The position numbers and the translations under genes are program-made. A stretch of 39,429 nt of DNA from an uncultured Actinomycetes bacterium (GTDB lineage: Bacteria > Actinomycetota > Actinomycetes > S36-B12 > UBA5976): assembly GCA_903892635.1 (NCBI GenBank), contig CAITJH010000025.1, positions 1-39,429 on the forward strand, in the 5' to 3' direction. Shown piece by piece: positions 20,407 to 27,929 of the stretch; within the stretch, counting starts at the first letter, position 1; each line of letters opens with the position of its first letter. The notes below the pieces were generated by a model. The model saw only the letters and a list, made by a program, of their open reading frames with translations, did not search any database and was not told where the DNA came from.

Positions 20407-21492
20407 TTAACCGATTCTTGGTGCTAACAATCGAGTAATCGCAGCGCTGATTGCGTGAGCAACATTGTCACGAACAACCTCGTTGCCTAAATGCATCGCA
20501 TCGTGCTCATTGCTGATGTATCCCACTTCGACGCGAACAGCTGGCATGCGAGTAAGGCGAAGTAAATCCCAAGTCTTTGGATGACTACGACAATCAAGCA
20601 ATTGTGTAGCCCGAGTGATTTCCTCTTGAATCAATTCAGCAAGCCGCATTCCAGTAGCAGAGCGCGAAAATTCATGACCGAAGTAATACGTTGCAACACC
20701 TTGAGGCAGATTGCTTGATGCACTGTCGCATCGCAGTGAGATGACTAGATCAACTTTCTGATCGTTTGCCAATGCCGCACGTTCACGCTCGTCACCATCA
20801 TGAGCAATCTGCGCTCGAGCCAAGATCACTTGAGCTCCGGCAGTCAGTAGCAGTCCCTCGAGCCGATTGGCGATGTCGTTACACACGAAGCTCTCTGAAA
20901 GATCAGTATGAGAAAACGTTCTGGTCGCAGCACTGGGATCGATCAAAATAACAGCAGAATCTAGTGTGGTTCGGCGCATCACAGAATCAGACATCGCAAG
21001 TTCGCGCAGGTGTTCTTGATTACCGCCCGAGACAGTTCGAATCAGGCGATTCAAAGCTCGAAAAAATTCCGGTCCAGCAATCCCGTCGACATCGAGGCCA
21101 ACATTGCGCTGAAATTCGCGTACCGCCGTGTCAGTGTTGCGTCCAAAGACGCCATCGACCCGATCAAGTGTGAAGCCCAATTCCAACAGGCGTTGTTGTA
21201 ATTGAGCGACATCTTCGCCATGAATAAGGTGGCTCGGAGTAAAACTTAAAACACGATCGCCAAGATTCCAGCGCGCTTCATCCAAGCGACGCATTGTTTG
21301 AGGCCCAGCAATTCCATCAACGGTCAGCCCTCGGCTTTGCTGAAAGACGCGAAGTGCTTGCTCGCATTCGTCATCGAAAATGTCGAAACCCACCTCAGTG
21401 TTCGCTGGCATGAAACCGAGTTGAACGAGGCGCGAACGCACCTCGAGCACTTCTGGTCCTTGATTGCCGAGCTTTAACACTGAAGTGGGCAC
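20407..21492 (-). CDS. cwlM: CwlM-like N-acetylmuramoyl-L-alanine amidase homologue, probably inactive
   Basis: 361 aa with two peptidoglycan-binding (PGB1-type) repeats (about 8-70 and 90-148) and a C-terminal Amidase_3 domain (about 178-358). There is no signal peptide, so it should be cytoplasmic. Active Amidase_3 enzymes begin with an aspartate-proline-glycine-histidine motif and have a histidine in the ISLHxN strand; here these read IDPSAAT (184-190) and ISLRCDS (251-257), so two zinc-ligand histidines appear lost. Glu200 and the catalytic-type Glu322 (VEVGYISN) remain. In mycobacteria CwlM is a cytoplasmic PknB substrate that activates MurA rather than a hydrolase; this homologue in the same locus likely has a similar regulatory role, which is inference. 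It ends without the C-terminal extension of the roughly 400-aa mycobacterial protein. The start is GTG, 11 nt after the trxA stop. Confidence 0.85.
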   Translation of the reverse strand: MPTSVLKLGNQGPEVLEVRSRLVQLGFMPANTEVGFDIFDDECEQALRVFQQSRGLTVDGIAGPQTMRRLDEARWNLGDRVLSFTPSHLIHGEDVAQLQQRLLELGFTLDRVDGVFGRNTDTAVREFQRNVGLDVDGIAGPEFFRALNRLIRTVSGGNQEHLRELAMSDSVMRRTTLDSAVILIDPSAATRTFSHTDLSESFVCNDIANRLEGLLLTAGAQVILARAQIAHDGDERERAALANDQKVDLVISLRCDSASSNLPQGVATYYFGHEFSRSATGMRLAELIQEEITRATQLLDCRSHPKTWDLLRLTRMPAVRVEVGYISNEHDAMHLGNEVVRDNVAHAISAAITRLLAPRIG

Positions 21493-21503
21493 GATAAAAA
21501 GGT

Positions 21504-21827
21504 TTAGATGAATTCCGCGAGATCAGCTAGCAAGCCAGCTTTTGGCTTTGCGCCGATGATCTGCTTAACAATCTCTCCACCTTGGTAGATGTTCATTGTT
21601 GGGATTGATGTAACGCCATAATTGGCTGCAGTTGCAGGGTTTTCGTCAACATTGAGCTTGACGATTGTGATCTTGTCACCATGCGCAGCAGCAATTTCTT
21701 CAAGAATTGGGCTGACCATTTTGCATGGACCACACCATTCTGCCCAGAAATCAACTAGTACTGGCTTTGTGCTGTTAAGCACTACTGACTGGAAATCAGC
21801 ATCCGTAACGGCGGCTGTAGCACCCAT
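21504..21827 (-). CDS. trxA: Thioredoxin
   Basis: A 107-aa thioredoxin that reduces protein disulfides and is recycled by the reductase encoded just upstream. The active site is WCGPCK (about 31-36), with the cis-proline in SIPTMNIY. I choose the ATG at 21825-21827, preceded by GAGGAAG, over the upstream ATG at 21860, which would add 11 residues not typical of the family. trxB-trxA-cwlM matches mycobacterial trxB2-trxC-cwlM order. Confidence 0.96.
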   Translation of the reverse strand: MGATAAVTDADFQSVVLNSTKPVLVDFWAEWCGPCKMVSPILEEIAAAHGDKITIVKLNVDENPATAANYGVTSIPTMNIYQGGEIVKQIIGAKPKAGLLADLAEFI

Positions 21828-21864
21828 GTGCTTCCTCGTTTCTATTTCGTGTGTCTGCATCTAA

Positions 21865-21904: not shown

Positions 21905-22834
21905 CTAGTGAGCTAGGAATCGTTCTGCATCGAGTGCGGCCTTGCACCCAGAGCCTGCGGCTGTGATTGCTTGGCGGTAAGTGTGGTCTACCAAATCTCC
22001 ACAGGCGAAAACTCCATCAACATTCGTTGCAGAAGAGTTGCCCTTGGTTATTACGTAGCCTTCGGAATCTAGTTCAACAACGCCCTTGATCAGTTCGGAA
22101 CGCGGGTCATGACCAATGGCTACGAATAGACCAGTGACATCAAGCGATCGTGTCTGTCCTGTTTGGGTATCGCGCAAGGTAACGCCCGACAATTTGGGAT
22201 CGCCATGAAGTTCGGTGACTTCGCTGTTCCAAGCGAATTTAATTTTTGGATCGTTATGTGCACGTTCGGCCATGATCTTGCTTGCTCGAAGTTCGCCACG
22301 ACGATGGATAAGAGTTACAGACTTAGCAAACCGAGTGAGGAATGTGGCCTCTTCAATTGCTGAATCGCCACCGCCAACAACTGCAATGTCTTGATCGCGG
22401 AAGAAAAAGCCATCGCAAGTTGCACACCATGACACCCCGTGGCCGGACAATTCTTGTTCGCGGTCAATACCTAAATTGCGGTAGGCCGAACCCATCGCCA
22501 AAATTACAGAACGTGCTTGGTAGGTGTTTCCCGAACCATCAGTAACACTCTTGATTGGGCCAGTGAGATCCATGGCAGTGACATCGTCAGTGATGAGTTG
22601 TGCATCAAAACGAGCAACTTGGGCACGCATGTTTTCCATCAAAGTTGGCCCCATCACACCATCAGGGAAACCTGGGAAGTTTTCAACCTCGGTGGTGTTC
22701 ATGAGTGCGCCACCAGCAGTGACAGCACCCTCGAAAATAATGGGATTTAGTTGGGCGCGCGCGGCATAAATTGCTGCGGTGTAGCCAGCTGGACCTGATC
22801 CAACAATGATGACTTCTCGAACGTCTTGACTCAT
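21905..22834 (-). CDS. trxB: Thioredoxin-disulfide reductase
   Basis: A 309-aa flavoprotein that passes electrons from NADPH to thioredoxin. It has the N-terminal FAD site [16 protein letters not shown] (about 12-27), the redox-active CATCDG, the NADPH site [10 protein letters not shown], and a second FAD motif VFACGDLVD near the C-terminus. The length is standard for the low-molecular-weight class. GAGGGG precedes the ATG. I found no clear SigR-type promoter (GGAAT-N18-GTT) in the 95-nt upstream gap, although such control is common in actinobacteria. Confidence 0.97.
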
Positions 22835-22929: not shown

Positions 22930-24384
22930 TTACAACCCAAACGTGATGCTTGTTATTCCGCCTTGATACGTTCCTGGTGTGGTTTCGGGAACCGCAGTGA
23001 TCCACACCAATACATAACGACCCGAAATAGCGCGTGGCGATTTAATGACACCTGACATGTCGGCATTTGTTAATGAACCCAGTTGTTGTGCCGTAGTGAC
23101 ATCGGGGTTTGCAGAGTCAGTCACGAACACTGTGGCAGACATCCCCGCAACAGTGAAATCTAGATTCACTTGCGAAACTGGCCGCGGCGCCCCAAGGTCA
23201 AGCAGTAATCCAACTCCGGGCTTTCCAGCCATATTGCTTGATCGGTATTTGACGGTTGTCCATGCTGTGGCCGCATCTGCATCTATCGCATTGTTAGCTA
23301 GGTCTGGGTTCTCACTGTTATCCCCAAATGGATCGTAATCCTTGACCGAGACAGCTTGAATTGGTTGCGTTGAAGTAGCTGTCGGACTGACGATAAGTCT
23401 TGGGGTGGCTTCAGGAGTCAGCAGAATCGAAGCAGGTACCTCAGACTTATTGAAATTGTGCGTCATGAGTTGCCAGCCAATCCAACCCATTCCCAGCACA
23501 CACACAACAGCAATGGCTGTTGCTCGAACCCTATGAGAGTGTGTTTCTGGTCGGCCATGCCATGTCACTGGATGAGCGGCAAGGCGAGCAAGCGTTGATG
23601 TTTGCTCAACTGATGCTTCAGCAGTGCCTACGCTGATGAGATCAATGAGCTCGCGCATCAATGTGATGCTGCCATCTTGGGTACGTAAGTAGAGCGCATC
23701 AATCGAATGTGGAATCGCTCCTCGCAAAGCACTGGGCAATTTTCGACTAGTACTAATAGGTGCAGTGGGTAAACCATCTGCTTCACCAGCAGGCCATACG
23801 CCGGTCACCATAGCGAAAAGCAGATTTCCGACCCCTTTGATGTCGGCGCGAATCGGATCGGTTTCATCGAGGCCAAGAAATGAACAGTCCACACCGAATC
23901 CAGAAATTCGAACAGGTTGAAGTTCATTAAGCAACACATTGTGGGGACGTAATCGTCCATGGCCAATGTGTTTATCGTGCGCTTGGGCTAATGAGACGGC
24001 AAGTTGTCGAACAAGATCCAACGCAACACCAGCGGTAAAGGGCTCTTGGTCTGACGTTAATCGTTCGTCCAGGCCGGTGCCTTCGGCCCATTCAGTGACA
24101 ATTCCGACGTAACGAGTTGGTTGAGCCAAGCTCTGATTATCTGTCAGACTCCCAGATTCAATGACATCAAGAAGTGCAATTGAATTGCGGCCAGCATTGG
24201 CCGCTGCCAAAAGACATGTCGTTACAACATTGTTTCGTCTCGAATCAGTCTCGTCGAGAAGATACAGAGTTACCCAGCGATTAAGAACAGTATCGAGCGC
24301 TCGCCACACCGTTGGGCTAACGGGTGAACTGACTTGAACGTCGAGCAGATAACGATCTGCAAATGTACGTCCCGCATCACTCAT
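22930..24384 (-). CDS. Pseudokinase-membrane-discoidin-like protein, partner of MurJ (split MviN C-terminal half)
   Basis: 484 aa. Residues about 10-255 resemble a Ser/Thr protein kinase fold that has lost catalysis. The invariant lysine strand reads WVTLYLLDE, the catalytic-loop HRDxxxxN is HGRLRPHN (142-149, no aspartate) and DFG is SGFG (161-164). A membrane segment covers about 287-306. An outer linker rich in Thr/Pro follows, then a C-terminal beta-rich domain (about 345-484) with DADAATAWTT and LLLDLGAPRPVSQV, as in F5/8 type C-like modules. In mycobacteria the same domain order is fused to the C-terminus of MviN/MurJ, where the phosphorylated pseudokinase recruits FhaA. Here it is a separate gene 10 nt after murJ. 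No ribosome binding site is present; TAATCT lies 7 nt upstream. Confidence 0.82.
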   Translation of the reverse strand: MSDAGRTFADRYLLDVQVSSPVSPTVWRALDTVLNRWVTLYLLDETDSRRNNVVTTCLLAAANAGRNSIALLDVIESGSLTDNQSLAQPTRYVGIVTEWAEGTGLDERLTSDQEPFTAGVALDLVRQLAVSLAQAHDKHIGHGRLRPHNVLLNELQPVRISGFGVDCSFLGLDETDPIRADIKGVGNLLFAMVTGVWPAGEADGLPTAPISTSRKLPSALRGAIPHSIDALYLRTQDGSITLMRELIDLISVGTAEASVEQTSTLARLAAHPVTWHGRPETHSHRVRATAIAVVCVLGMGWIGWQLMTHNFNKSEVPASILLTPEATPRLIVSPTATSTQPIQAVSVKDYDPFGDNSENPDLANNAIDADAATAWTTVKYRSSNMAGKPGVGLLLDLGAPRPVSQVNLDFTVAGMSATVFVTDSANPDVTTAQQLGSLTNADMSGVIKSPRAISGRYVLVWITAVPETTPGTYQGGITSITFGL

Positions 24385-24394
24385 ACATCAAAGA

Positions 24395-26017
24395 TTATCT
24401 GCGCAAGCGACGATTGAGAAATTCTTGAAGAGCGTCGAGCTCGCGAATATGTGTGCGGTGTGCAGCAAAAACAAAGACAACCGCGAAGACCAAAGCTTCG
24501 ATACTGAACTTCGCAAGTAACGCAAAGAAGCCACTAGCGGTGTCAAGTTGCCCAATCGCAACATGAACGGCGATAGCTACCAGTGATGCAGTAATTGAGC
24601 ACACAATCACACGAACAATGTGGCGCGTTAAGTCAGTGGACTGCGAAGCAATGTGACGTCGACTGACTCGTTTCCAAGTGACAATCGCCGTGATGGTGTA
24701 CGCCACCGAATAGGCGAGAGCTAATGAAGCAACCTTGTGACTGATTGTGACGTAATGAAAAAGAATGAGACCAATTCCAAGGTGCAAGCCATTGAATCCA
24801 AGATTGAGAAAGAACGGTGTCTTGGTATTTTCTTGCGCGTAGTAACTGCGCAAGAGAACATAAAAAATTGAAAAAGCGGGCAGACCGAGGGCAAACATCG
24901 AAGCAATAACACCGACTGATGAGCCTTGCTGATGCGATGAGGCTCCAAATCCATAAAGCAATTGACCCAAGAGCGGACCAGTAATAAAGAGCAGTGTTGC
25001 GCCGGGAACAATAAAAGCAATAACAGTGCGCACACCATCGGTGAGATCATGACCAAAACTGTCGAAGTCACCAGCATGCGCTTGTCGACTTAGTCGTGGC
25101 AATAGTGCAGTAATCAAACTGACAGTGATGATGCTGTGCGGCAACATCATCATGAGCTGACCTTTTTGATACGAGGTAAAACCAATCTCGACTAAGCCCG
25201 CTTGCGAAGCCACTACGTTTGCGTAAGTCGTAAGGCGAGCGATAACCAAAAAACTAATTTGATTTACTGCAACAAACCCAATGGTCCAAATAGCTAAGTC
25301 ACCGACTTTTCCTAGACCGCTACCACGCAAACCAAACTTTGGAGTGAACCAATAACCACTCTTCTTCAGTGCAGGTAACAAGATGCCCGCCTGCATAATC
25401 ACACCAAGAGTTGTTCCTGCTCCAAGCAATGTCAATTGCGCCGAGGTCACTGAGGATGTATTTGGTTGTCCTACCGAGATCGAAATAAAAATTACTGCAG
25501 TAACAATGACAATGACATTGTTAACGATCGGGGCAAACATCGGAACGATGAATACATCACGCGAATTAAGTACTTGGCTAATGACGGTGTAGAGACCATA
25601 GAAAAAGATTTGCGGTAAACACCACAGTGCAAAAATTGTCGCAACATGTAAATCTTGATTTGTCCACTGCGATGTTGAATATATTCGAACCAACAAACTA
25701 GCGGCCATCATCGCGATGACAACAATGATCAACAAGATGCTGCTAATCGCAGTGAGTAACTGATCGGTGAATTTCTTGCCACCATCGTGGTCATCTTGCA
25801 TGTGGCGAATGAGCGATGGAATAAAGACAGCATTAATTGCGCCGCCGGCAATCAAAATGTAAATAATGTTAGGGATGCTGTTGGCAACGGAGTAGGTGTC
25901 CGAAAAAATACCTGTACCGATTGCAGCAACGAGGACAATGTCGCGAACCACACCGGATAGCCGACTGATCAACGTGCCAAGGGCCATACCTGAGGTATTG
26001 CCCAATGACTTACCCAT
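24395..26017 (-). CDS. murJ: Lipid II flippase MurJ (MviN)
   Basis: A 540-aa polytopic protein of the MATE/MOP superfamily with about 14 membrane helices that moves lipid II to the outer face of the membrane. The N-terminus MGKSLGNTSGMALGTLISRL and the following GVVRDIVLVAAIGTG are typical, including the early arginines of the central cavity. The protein stops after the membrane domain (…EFLNRRLRR), at the usual length of non-mycobacterial MurJ; the kinase-like half is a separate gene downstream. AAGG lies 7-9 nt before the ATG. It follows the DUF6049 gene by 34 nt, as in mycobacteria. Confidence 0.95.
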   Translation of the reverse strand: MGKSLGNTSGMALGTLISRLSGVVRDIVLVAAIGTGIFSDTYSVANSIPNIIYILIAGGAINAVFIPSLIRHMQDDHDGGKKFTDQLLTAISSILLIIVVIAMMAASLLVRIYSTSQWTNQDLHVATIFALWCLPQIFFYGLYTVISQVLNSRDVFIVPMFAPIVNNVIVIVTAVIFISISVGQPNTSSVTSAQLTLLGAGTTLGVIMQAGILLPALKKSGYWFTPKFGLRGSGLGKVGDLAIWTIGFVAVNQISFLVIARLTTYANVVASQAGLVEIGFTSYQKGQLMMMLPHSIITVSLITALLPRLSRQAHAGDFDSFGHDLTDGVRTVIAFIVPGATLLFITGPLLGQLLYGFGASSHQQGSSVGVIASMFALGLPAFSIFYVLLRSYYAQENTKTPFFLNLGFNGLHLGIGLILFHYVTISHKVASLALAYSVAYTITAIVTWKRVSRRHIASQSTDLTRHIVRVIVCSITASLVAIAVHVAIGQLDTASGFFALLAKFSIEALVFAVVFVFAAHRTHIRELDALQEFLNRRLRR

Positions 26018-26051: not shown

Positions 26052-27929
26052 TTAGGTGGTTTGTGAACCTCGAGTACGTCGCCACACGTTATGTGCAACT
26101 AATAGCACGAGTGCAATAAGTGCTATCCACACCAGACTACGGGCGAATTGCTGATAAGCAGTGGAGGCAATCTCCACAATCAGCTTGTCTCCAAAAATAT
26201 TTCCAGTCGAGTCGGCAAGTGATACCTGTGCTTGAACATCTCCGGAAATGTGTAGAGCAATCGGAATCTGCACAGTAATGCGCCGTTTTGGTTCGATCGT
26301 TATAGTGTCAACTTTTCCAGCAGTTAAATGACCAGGTACCGAGCTAGTCACAACAACATTGACAGTCGCCGTAAAGTCCGTCGGATTAAAAACGGTGACA
26401 GGTAGTTGCGCTGTTGTTCCCGGAATTGTGATGTGCTTGGACCCTTCAAGCGCAAGTTCGTTCAATTGCGATACTTCTTGCTCTACGAATGACCTGCCAA
26501 AGTGTTGTGCTGAACTTTCGCTAGTCCAATCTTGCGAATAGAGAACAGTCGACGCCGCAGTGAGAGCTGATGTATTAGCCGATGAACCAAAAACATTTCG
26601 TACAAGTGATTCGGATTTGACGATGTCACGTTCGATCTTGCGCGTTTGCATGTTAAAGGGTTGTGCACGTGTACCTTGATTGGACACTGTAGATACTGCA
26701 TGGGCTGACAGTAATGACGAAAGCGAACTAAGTGTGTAAGCGCGATTGCCTTGAACTTGTTCGTTCACTAATTGCGCAAAAGTTAAACTTGGATCCCAAT
26801 TCTTGGGAGTCGAGACCAGCACCGTGCGGCTCGCATTTGGTGATTCAGCAGTCATCATTGACAGTTGAGCATTTAAGCACCAGCCTGCCGAGAATCCATC
26901 TACTAGAGATAGACATGAACTTGCGCCACTGTCATTAATCAACACTTGCCCAGTTGACGATGTACTGCGGGCATCGGTGGTTACATTCTTGTCGCGCGAC
27001 AAAAACGTGTTATCGACAACTGTGACCACTTGCTTATCGAAGTCGGTTCCGAATGAACCGATAGCACCGGTCTTTGTGTCGAGGAAGTACAACGTATGTG
27101 CGGCGGTTGGATCCTTCGAAAGCGCTCGTTTAATCGAAGTAGTTTGGTTTCCAGCAACTAAACGAGCCAGATTAACGTTTCCAAATGCACTCGGGATTGC
27201 TCCAAGAGATTCAAGCTCTTGTCCCATTTCACGTGTTGCTTCATCGGTTGAACTTGTCAGCAGGGACGTTGTGTATCCATCAACAACGTATGAGGCACCC
27301 GTCAGATTTGCTGCAAGTATTTGACGGATGCGTTCTGCTTCGATTGAACTAGTTGTTGCGCGCACATCTTCACGGACGTCGTGCGTGCTAGTTGTTATTG
27401 GAACTGCAAGCACAACAGTGGTTGGCGACAGTGATGAACTCTTAGCAAACCACGCAAGTGCAATTACTTCAGAGACTCGTGAAGTAGTGGCAGTTACTCC
27501 AATTGGGAAAACGCCGCCAGAAGTATTGCTCCACAGTTTCGTTGTAGGAATTGAAATGGACCATTGTGCACTAGCCTGTGCAGTCAGATTGGCAATTGAT
27601 GTCGTAGCGCTGGCTACAGGACTTACGGATGTTGAAGAGTGGGTGTCAATGACATCAGCCAATTGTGATCGCGTAGCGAATGGATGGCCGGTTACAAGTT
27701 GCAACTGTTCAGTTAATGACGAGCCTCCTGTATTTTTCAAGGTTCCAGCCAAAGTCACAGTGTCTTGACTTTGACCCGTTACAGGATCTTTAGCCGACGA
27801 GATGGTGGCTCCAGTAATTGTCAGGGCAATACTTGGGCTTGATGCGCGAGCAGGGGCCATCGTTAAGAATGGCAACAGGATGACAACTGCGAGGGCTGAT
27901 CGAGTCAGCAGGCGCAGGAGTGAAGTCAT
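26052..27929 (-). CDS. Secreted, membrane-anchored DUF6049 family protein
   Basis: A 625-aa protein with a signal peptide (residues 1-29, MAPARA as the likely cleavage region). It has a long extracytoplasmic part rich in Ser/Thr/Val, then a C-terminal membrane helix (about 596-615) and a short basic tail (RRTRGSQTT). A segment near residues 510-590 looks like an immunoglobulin-like beta domain. It occupies the position of mycobacterial Rv3909 next to mviN and is best assigned to DUF6049. The function is unknown; constant linkage with MurJ suggests a cell-wall role. It has no ribosome binding site but has a leaderless-type -10. Confidence 0.8.
   Translation of the reverse strand: MTSLLRLLTRSALAVVILLPFLTMAPARASSPSIALTITGATISSAKDPVTGQSQDTVTLAGTLKNTGGSSLTEQLQLVTGHPFATRSQLADVIDTHSSTSVSPVASATTSIANLTAQASAQWSISIPTTKLWSNTSGGVFPIGVTATTSRVSEVIALAWFAKSSSLSPTTVVLAVPITTSTHDVREDVRATTSSIEAERIRQILAANLTGASYVVDGYTTSLLTSSTDEATREMGQELESLGAIPSAFGNVNLARLVAGNQTTSIKRALSKDPTAAHTLYFLDTKTGAIGSFGTDFDKQVVTVVDNTFLSRDKNVTTDARSTSSTGQVLINDSGASSCLSLVDGFSAGWCLNAQLSMMTAESPNASRTVLVSTPKNWDPSLTFAQLVNEQVQGNRAYTLSSLSSLLSAHAVSTVSNQGTRAQPFNMQTRKIERDIVKSESLVRNVFGSSANTSALTAASTVLYSQDWTSESSAQHFGRSFVEQEVSQLNELALEGSKHITIPGTTAQLPVTVFNPTDFTATVNVVVTSSVPGHLTAGKVDTITIEPKRRITVQIPIALHISGDVQAQVSLADSTGNIFGDKLIVEIASTAYQQFARSLVWIALIALVLLVAHNVWRRTRGSQTT

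Follow-up and report, generated by a model that had tools for sequence, protein, structure and literature searches.

A separate pseudokinase gene beside murJ in Actinomycetota and its probable place in the ancestry of MviN

The pseudokinase joined to the lipid II flippase MurJ in mycobacterial MviN has been well studied; to our knowledge, pseudokinase control of MurJ has been investigated almost solely on such fused proteins, from mycobacteria and corynebacteria. In the 39,429 nucleotides (nt) of DNA analyzed here, from an uncultured Actinomycetes bacterium and termed ‘the window’ throughout, the same two components occupy separate reading frames. murJ (positions 24395–26017, minus strand) specifies 540 amino acids (aa), and the adjoining pseudokinase gene (22930–24384, minus strand) specifies 484; the gap between the murJ stop and the pseudokinase ATG is 10 nt (24385–24394, minus strand), and the frames differ. 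Which is the older form, the pair or the fusion, and what might a dead kinase do beside a flippase from which it is detached? We consider it likely that the pseudokinase is a separate, catalytically dead membrane protein, and most likely a regulatory subunit of MurJ; that this arrangement is ancestral; and that the protein is a stepwise-decayed kinase that was fused to MurJ at least twice later.

The actinobacterial genome measures 1.68 Mb, and the window represents its replication-origin region. Its genes run gyrA-gyrB-recF-dnaN-dnaA and then rnpA-yidC-rsmG-parA-parB. Beyond parB comes a minus-strand block comprising a cwlM-like gene (20407–21492; 361 aa, with two PG-binding domains and Amidase_3 by domain search), trxA (21504–21860) and trxB (21905–22834), both identified by reading their ORFs, the pseudokinase gene, murJ and, upstream of murJ, a DUF6049 gene (26052–27929; Pfam PF19516, E 4e-22), followed by pcnA on the plus strand. 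This we take to be the Rv3907c–Rv3915 block of M. tuberculosis minus sigM and rsmA. The order is conserved: a locus from another class (L193) has parA-parB, then cwlM-trxA-trxB-pseudokinase-murJ-DUF6049-NUDIX, then pcnA, verified protein by protein, and DUF6049 also precedes murJ in L182 and L199. The window MurJ matches TIGR01695 at full length (E 2e-93; 313.6 bits, cut-off 235.55) and Pfam MurJ at E 1e-88, and it stops directly after the last membrane helix, with a C-terminal tail of 0 aa. That the flippase ends at its membrane domain, as a preliminary description of the window had it, is therefore correct. The gap is just 10 nt and the frame shifts across it, but a sequencing or assembly error that broke one reading frame is ruled out, since independent genomes of the same genus have two separate genes wherever a contig covers both, with other gap lengths and relative frames, and isolates such as Streptomyces and Nocardioides are likewise split. 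The pseudokinase was detected in the other searched genomes of the genus, the match in one (G405) being weak.

The neighboring gene encodes a kinase-like domain, a membrane helix and a discoidin-like domain, as had been proposed. Residues 5–258 (23611–24372, minus strand) form a kinase fold according to active-site alignment, structure comparison and an AlphaFold2 model of the 484-aa protein (mean pLDDT 88.7). The fold assignment itself was made on residues 5–255, which the NCBIfam PknB model matches at E 8e-14 and Pfam Pkinase at E 5e-7, just under the family cut-off; the kinase-fold similarity on which the preliminary description had staked its reading is thus present. Ranked by VIA Z, the best fold match is to PknB-type PASTA kinases (23.8 with M. 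tuberculosis PknB), and the M. tuberculosis MviN structures (PDB 3otv, 3ouk, 3uqc and 3oun) follow within about 2; the match to 3otv (Z 22.0, 239 residues, 24% identity) is one of related domains. A predicted membrane helix, residues 283–309 (23458–23538, minus strand), contains the membrane segment in the model and is followed by a disordered stretch (residues 312–337). The final domain, residues 338–484 (22933–23373, minus strand), is expected outside the membrane and has a discoidin, or CBM32, fold. Its Pfam score (F5_F8_type_C, E 0.014) is sub-threshold and was not taken as proof; a separate model was used instead (pLDDT 95.9), and this matches CBM32 modules with a VIA Z of 16.3 and an rmsd of 2.1 over 122 residues. 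Like PknB-type PASTA kinases, the protein combines a cytoplasmic kinase fold, a single membrane helix and an extracellular sensor; unlike them, it has no catalytic residues, and a CBM32-type domain replaces the PASTA repeats.

The closest known system is M. tuberculosis MviN (Rv3910), with which the window shares MurJ, the pseudokinase, the one helix, the C-terminal sugar-binding-like domain and the chromosomal block. The window differs from it in having two proteins rather than one—a stop, 10 nt and a change of frame stand where MurJ would be fused—and in lacking both the 140-aa linker and a conserved phospho-Thr947. The domain order is nevertheless that of the C-terminal half of mycobacterial MviN, as first suggested: a single profile spans split and fused proteins alike from end to end, and gene order is conserved. 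A profile built from fused and split members matches the M. tuberculosis pseudokinase structures at E 1e-82, and one built from split members only matches 3otv at E 9e-23. In a PDB search the split-only profile gives 105 bits for PknB but 84 bits for the MviN pseudokinase of M. tuberculosis, a shortfall explained by how strongly derived that domain is. Since that profile failed to place MviN first, our claim of orthology rests on the full-length domain match, gene order and trees, and not on sequence score alone.

To map the two arrangements, a pseudokinase profile was searched against 138 genomes from across the class, and the results were compared with MurJ positions in the same genomes. Pseudokinase and MurJ share one open frame solely in two families: f4, one of whose proteins groups with M. 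tuberculosis MviN in the tree with full support, and f99, whose MurJ is nearest to that of Nocardioidaceae. The class sample of 59 loci from 33 families contains 43 split-adjacent loci, 7 fused loci and 9 without a recognizable partner, with split pairs in 27 of the families. Among 80 named loci, reached through a MurJ alignment, 57 are split (e.g. in Streptomyces, Kitasatospora, Nocardioides and Aeromicrobium), 2 are fused (Tessaracoccus antarcticus and a Propionibacteriaceae MAG) and 21 have no partner. Some of these 21 lie on contigs that end too early; many of the remainder are probably extra MurJ paralogues of Streptomyces, for Streptomyces-like genomes carry one to three MurJ hits each. 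Fusion was seen only in Mycobacteriaceae and in Propionibacteriaceae or a related family. Other classes have split pairs in several families, and no fused locus was seen among those examined there. Separate genes are the norm; fusion is exceptional. Five loci (L111, L114, L115, L117 and L144) come from public MAGs whose titles—Bifidobacterium breve, Rubrivirga and Candidatus Fonsibacter lacus—conflict with their MurJ matches and, for L111, also with the pseudokinase tree; these are probably mislabeled.

The preliminary description had called for a profile search across actinobacteria and a phylogeny of the two forms, and had not decided whether the split came first or arose by fission. A tree built on MurJ and pseudokinase together (69 rows, 999 columns) nests the fused proteins within the split ones at two places. 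Forcing all fused proteins to share an origin lowers lnL by 105 and fails the AU test (p = 0.002); for the Propionibacteriales fusions taken by themselves, a common origin passes it (p 0.35). Nesting and the rejected single origin together make the split form ancestral, with fusion occurring at least twice. Secondary fission of a once-fused MviN would account for a domain order that matches the fused protein, and gene fission is known in small genomes like that of the window, but the spread of split pairs through the class and beyond it, the fused loci confined to the class, and the AU test lead us to reject it, within our sample, as highly improbable. Ancestral separation is the alternative that stands. 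It also bears on a proposal made for the fused MurJ-pseudokinase of Corynebacterium diphtheriae, which has the same two components as the window pair: that only bacteria with arabinogalactan have the pseudokinase extension (PMC10166564, available part). With fused forms in Propionibacteriaceae, and a separate gene phylum-wide, the present data contradict that restriction.

Is the window protein truly dead? The catalytic Lys, the HRD Asp and the DFG Asp had been reported as lost, and they are, the corresponding residues being Tyr41, Arg144 and Gly162. Measured between the DFG position and the helix-F Asp, the activation loop has 19–20 residues, compared with 40–43 in intact relatives and 13 in the M. 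tuberculosis protein; this is the deletion characteristic of MviN-type (ActPs3-like) pseudokinases. The HRD His and a remnant of the DFG motif, GFG, survive in the window protein; M. tuberculosis MviN has LSID and a deleted DFG. With the ActPs3 family, as described in the available part of PMC12599244, the window protein shares its actinobacterial origin, the loss of all three motifs, the activation-loop deletion and a C-terminal membrane helix; its motif remnants are closer to those of kinases. Apart from M. tuberculosis MviN, ActPs3 members have no carbohydrate-binding domain according to the same review; the split protein of the window does have a domain of this type. Some phosphotransfer through an unusual active site is conceivable, given that the catalytic-loop residues His142 and Asn149 are retained and that Lys-less kinases are known elsewhere. 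It is very unlikely, however, when all three catalytic residues are substituted, the activation loop is halved, and the Trp that fills the ATP pocket of M. tuberculosis MviN (W789) is kept in the window protein and in 95 of 118 split proteins.

If the protein is dead, its relatives in other classes need not be. The murJ neighbor there can be an intact kinase, with VAVK, HRD and DFG, as in L182 (7476–8996), L199 (5462–6955) and L191; these three, together with L203 and L205, whose kinases lie near a murJ, have all of K/D/D and activation loops of 40–43 residues. In L182 and L199 the order is DUF6049, murJ, a short gap, the kinase, an intervening ORF and trxB, and in the L182 kinase a discoidin-type domain scores above its Pfam cut-off. 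The L182, L199 and L191 enzymes are probable glycan-sensing kinases of wall synthesis that dispense with PASTA repeats. Between the intact and the dead stand intermediates: the HRD Asp alone is lost (K-x-D) in L190, L192, L193 and L206 and, inside the class, in L045, L046 and L075, while members of family f98 are without the Lys but retain the DFG Asp. In almost every other member of the class all three are gone. In a carefully built tree the members of the class form one clade (support 100/99), and 29 fully degraded rows, including those of the window, Streptomyces and Propionibacteriales, group together with support of 99/95. The Mycobacteriaceae fall outside this degraded group, beside partly degraded forms, although their exact place comes with a long-branch warning. 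Their position outside it means that decay may have been completed independently in Mycobacteriaceae and in the clade of the window.

The intact syntenic kinases, and the intermediates that lack only the HRD Asp, suggest that catalysis was lost before fusion took place. We think it probable, with somewhat less assurance than for the overall reading, that the partner began as an active receptor-like kinase encoded separately beside murJ; that in Actinomycetes it would have decayed stepwise, the HRD Asp going first in the intermediates seen; and that fusion to MurJ came afterwards, independently in Mycobacteriaceae and Propionibacteriales. If so, the mycobacterial MviN pseudokinase is the end point of a traceable transition from kinase to scaffold, one with living intermediates that concerns a drug-relevant, essential flippase, and same-locus relatives, intact and half-decayed, open the original substrate and the post-catalytic function to experiment. 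The intact syntenic kinase and the HRD-only intermediates are new here. A separate pseudokinase gene is not described in the available parts of PMC12599244 and PMC10166564, and we found no paper on the split form in the open-access literature; genes of this kind may already pass through annotation pipelines, without comment, as kinase-family proteins. Because the gene is separate phylum-wide, the regulator can be removed, exchanged or purified while the essential flippase is left intact, for instance in Streptomyces or other harmless species.

How might the separate protein act? As we picture it, it would be a non-enzymatic, single-pass subunit of MurJ whose cytoplasmic part is a kinase-shaped scaffold and whose outer part is a CBM32/discoidin domain of sugar-binding type. 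Outside, the protein would sense wall glycan or dock on it; inside, its dead kinase domain would bind MurJ, cytoplasmic regulators of wall synthesis, or both, and so tune the export of lipid II. From the independent fusions and the long-conserved, phylum-wide adjacency we infer, reasonably we believe, that the two membrane proteins form a functional partnership and must meet, as the preliminary description supposed. Adjacency alone is unspecific for such a complex, because the entire oriC-side neighborhood is conserved. Co-divergence adds support of a weak kind, helpful rather than decisive: across 58 loci, pseudokinase distances correlate with those of MurJ after correction for TrxB (partial r 0.59), and not with those of TrxB after correction for MurJ (0.06).

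The pseudokinase could instead sit beside murJ merely as part of an old origin-proximal block, its real partner being, say, CwlM, DUF6049 or a PASTA kinase. The trxA, trxB, cwlM, DUF6049 and parAB genes are conserved around it just as murJ is, and in two genomes of family f8 it persists more than 190 kb from murJ (L084 and L085, compared with L068), a natural separation of the pair. Such an explanation is unlikely, though, as the independent fusions joined MurJ and no other neighbor in our sample, the divergence tracks MurJ rather than TrxB, and the fused mycobacterial domain belongs to the flippase protein (PMC6180346). Partnership with MurJ, which we prefer, need not be obligatory. In families f9, f102 and f90 murJ is followed directly, or nearly so, by trxB, with no recognizable pseudokinase partner, and since murJ is kept where the partner is lost, the partner is dispensable there. 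The rest of the block remains in L064, L065, L079, L081 and L083, from these families; the f102 genomes measure 1.2–2.2 Mb, and the protein at their DUF6049 place has only about 360 aa. In family f2 a strongly diverged kinase-like ORF, with no Pfam match, follows murJ.

The preliminary description further expected PknB/FhaA-type control of lipid II export. In that circuit a PASTA kinase phosphorylates a juxtamembrane Thr, FhaA docks on it, and MurJ is inhibited. The genome of the window encodes FhaA (identified by its FhaA_N and FHA domains) together with FhaB, PstP, RodA and an intact PASTA kinase (named from their sequences), so that the FhaA, PstP and PASTA kinase of the circuit are all at hand. 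In the column of M. tuberculosis phospho-Thr947, moreover, the window protein has Thr, as do 3 of 3 Mycobacteriaceae proteins; genus-mates, however, have Arg (L027) or Gln (L088), and a docking Thr is therefore not conserved in the genus. The C-terminal linker of MurJ is essential in M. tuberculosis. It binds CwlM there (PMC6180346), and in the window MurJ it is absent. The window CwlM-like protein stops at the close of its amidase domain and has no counterpart to the C-terminal tail that is phosphorylated in M. tuberculosis CwlM, and the FhaA of the genome (L168, 3719–4429; 237 aa) lacks the long linker of mycobacterial FhaA. Expected control of this kind thus finds no support at the level of residues. 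Judged from the gene complement, a PknB–FhaA route is possible in this organism, but operation of the mycobacterial mechanism is doubtful, and with the docking Thr unconserved, the linker absent and the CwlM-like tail missing, the circuit should not be transferred to it.

One further feature of MurJ linkers may be recorded. The fused MurJ proteins of family f99 (L058–L061) conserve a linker motif, ETGTLSIFRRP...EFFLDET, that resembles a docking site or a phosphorylation site.
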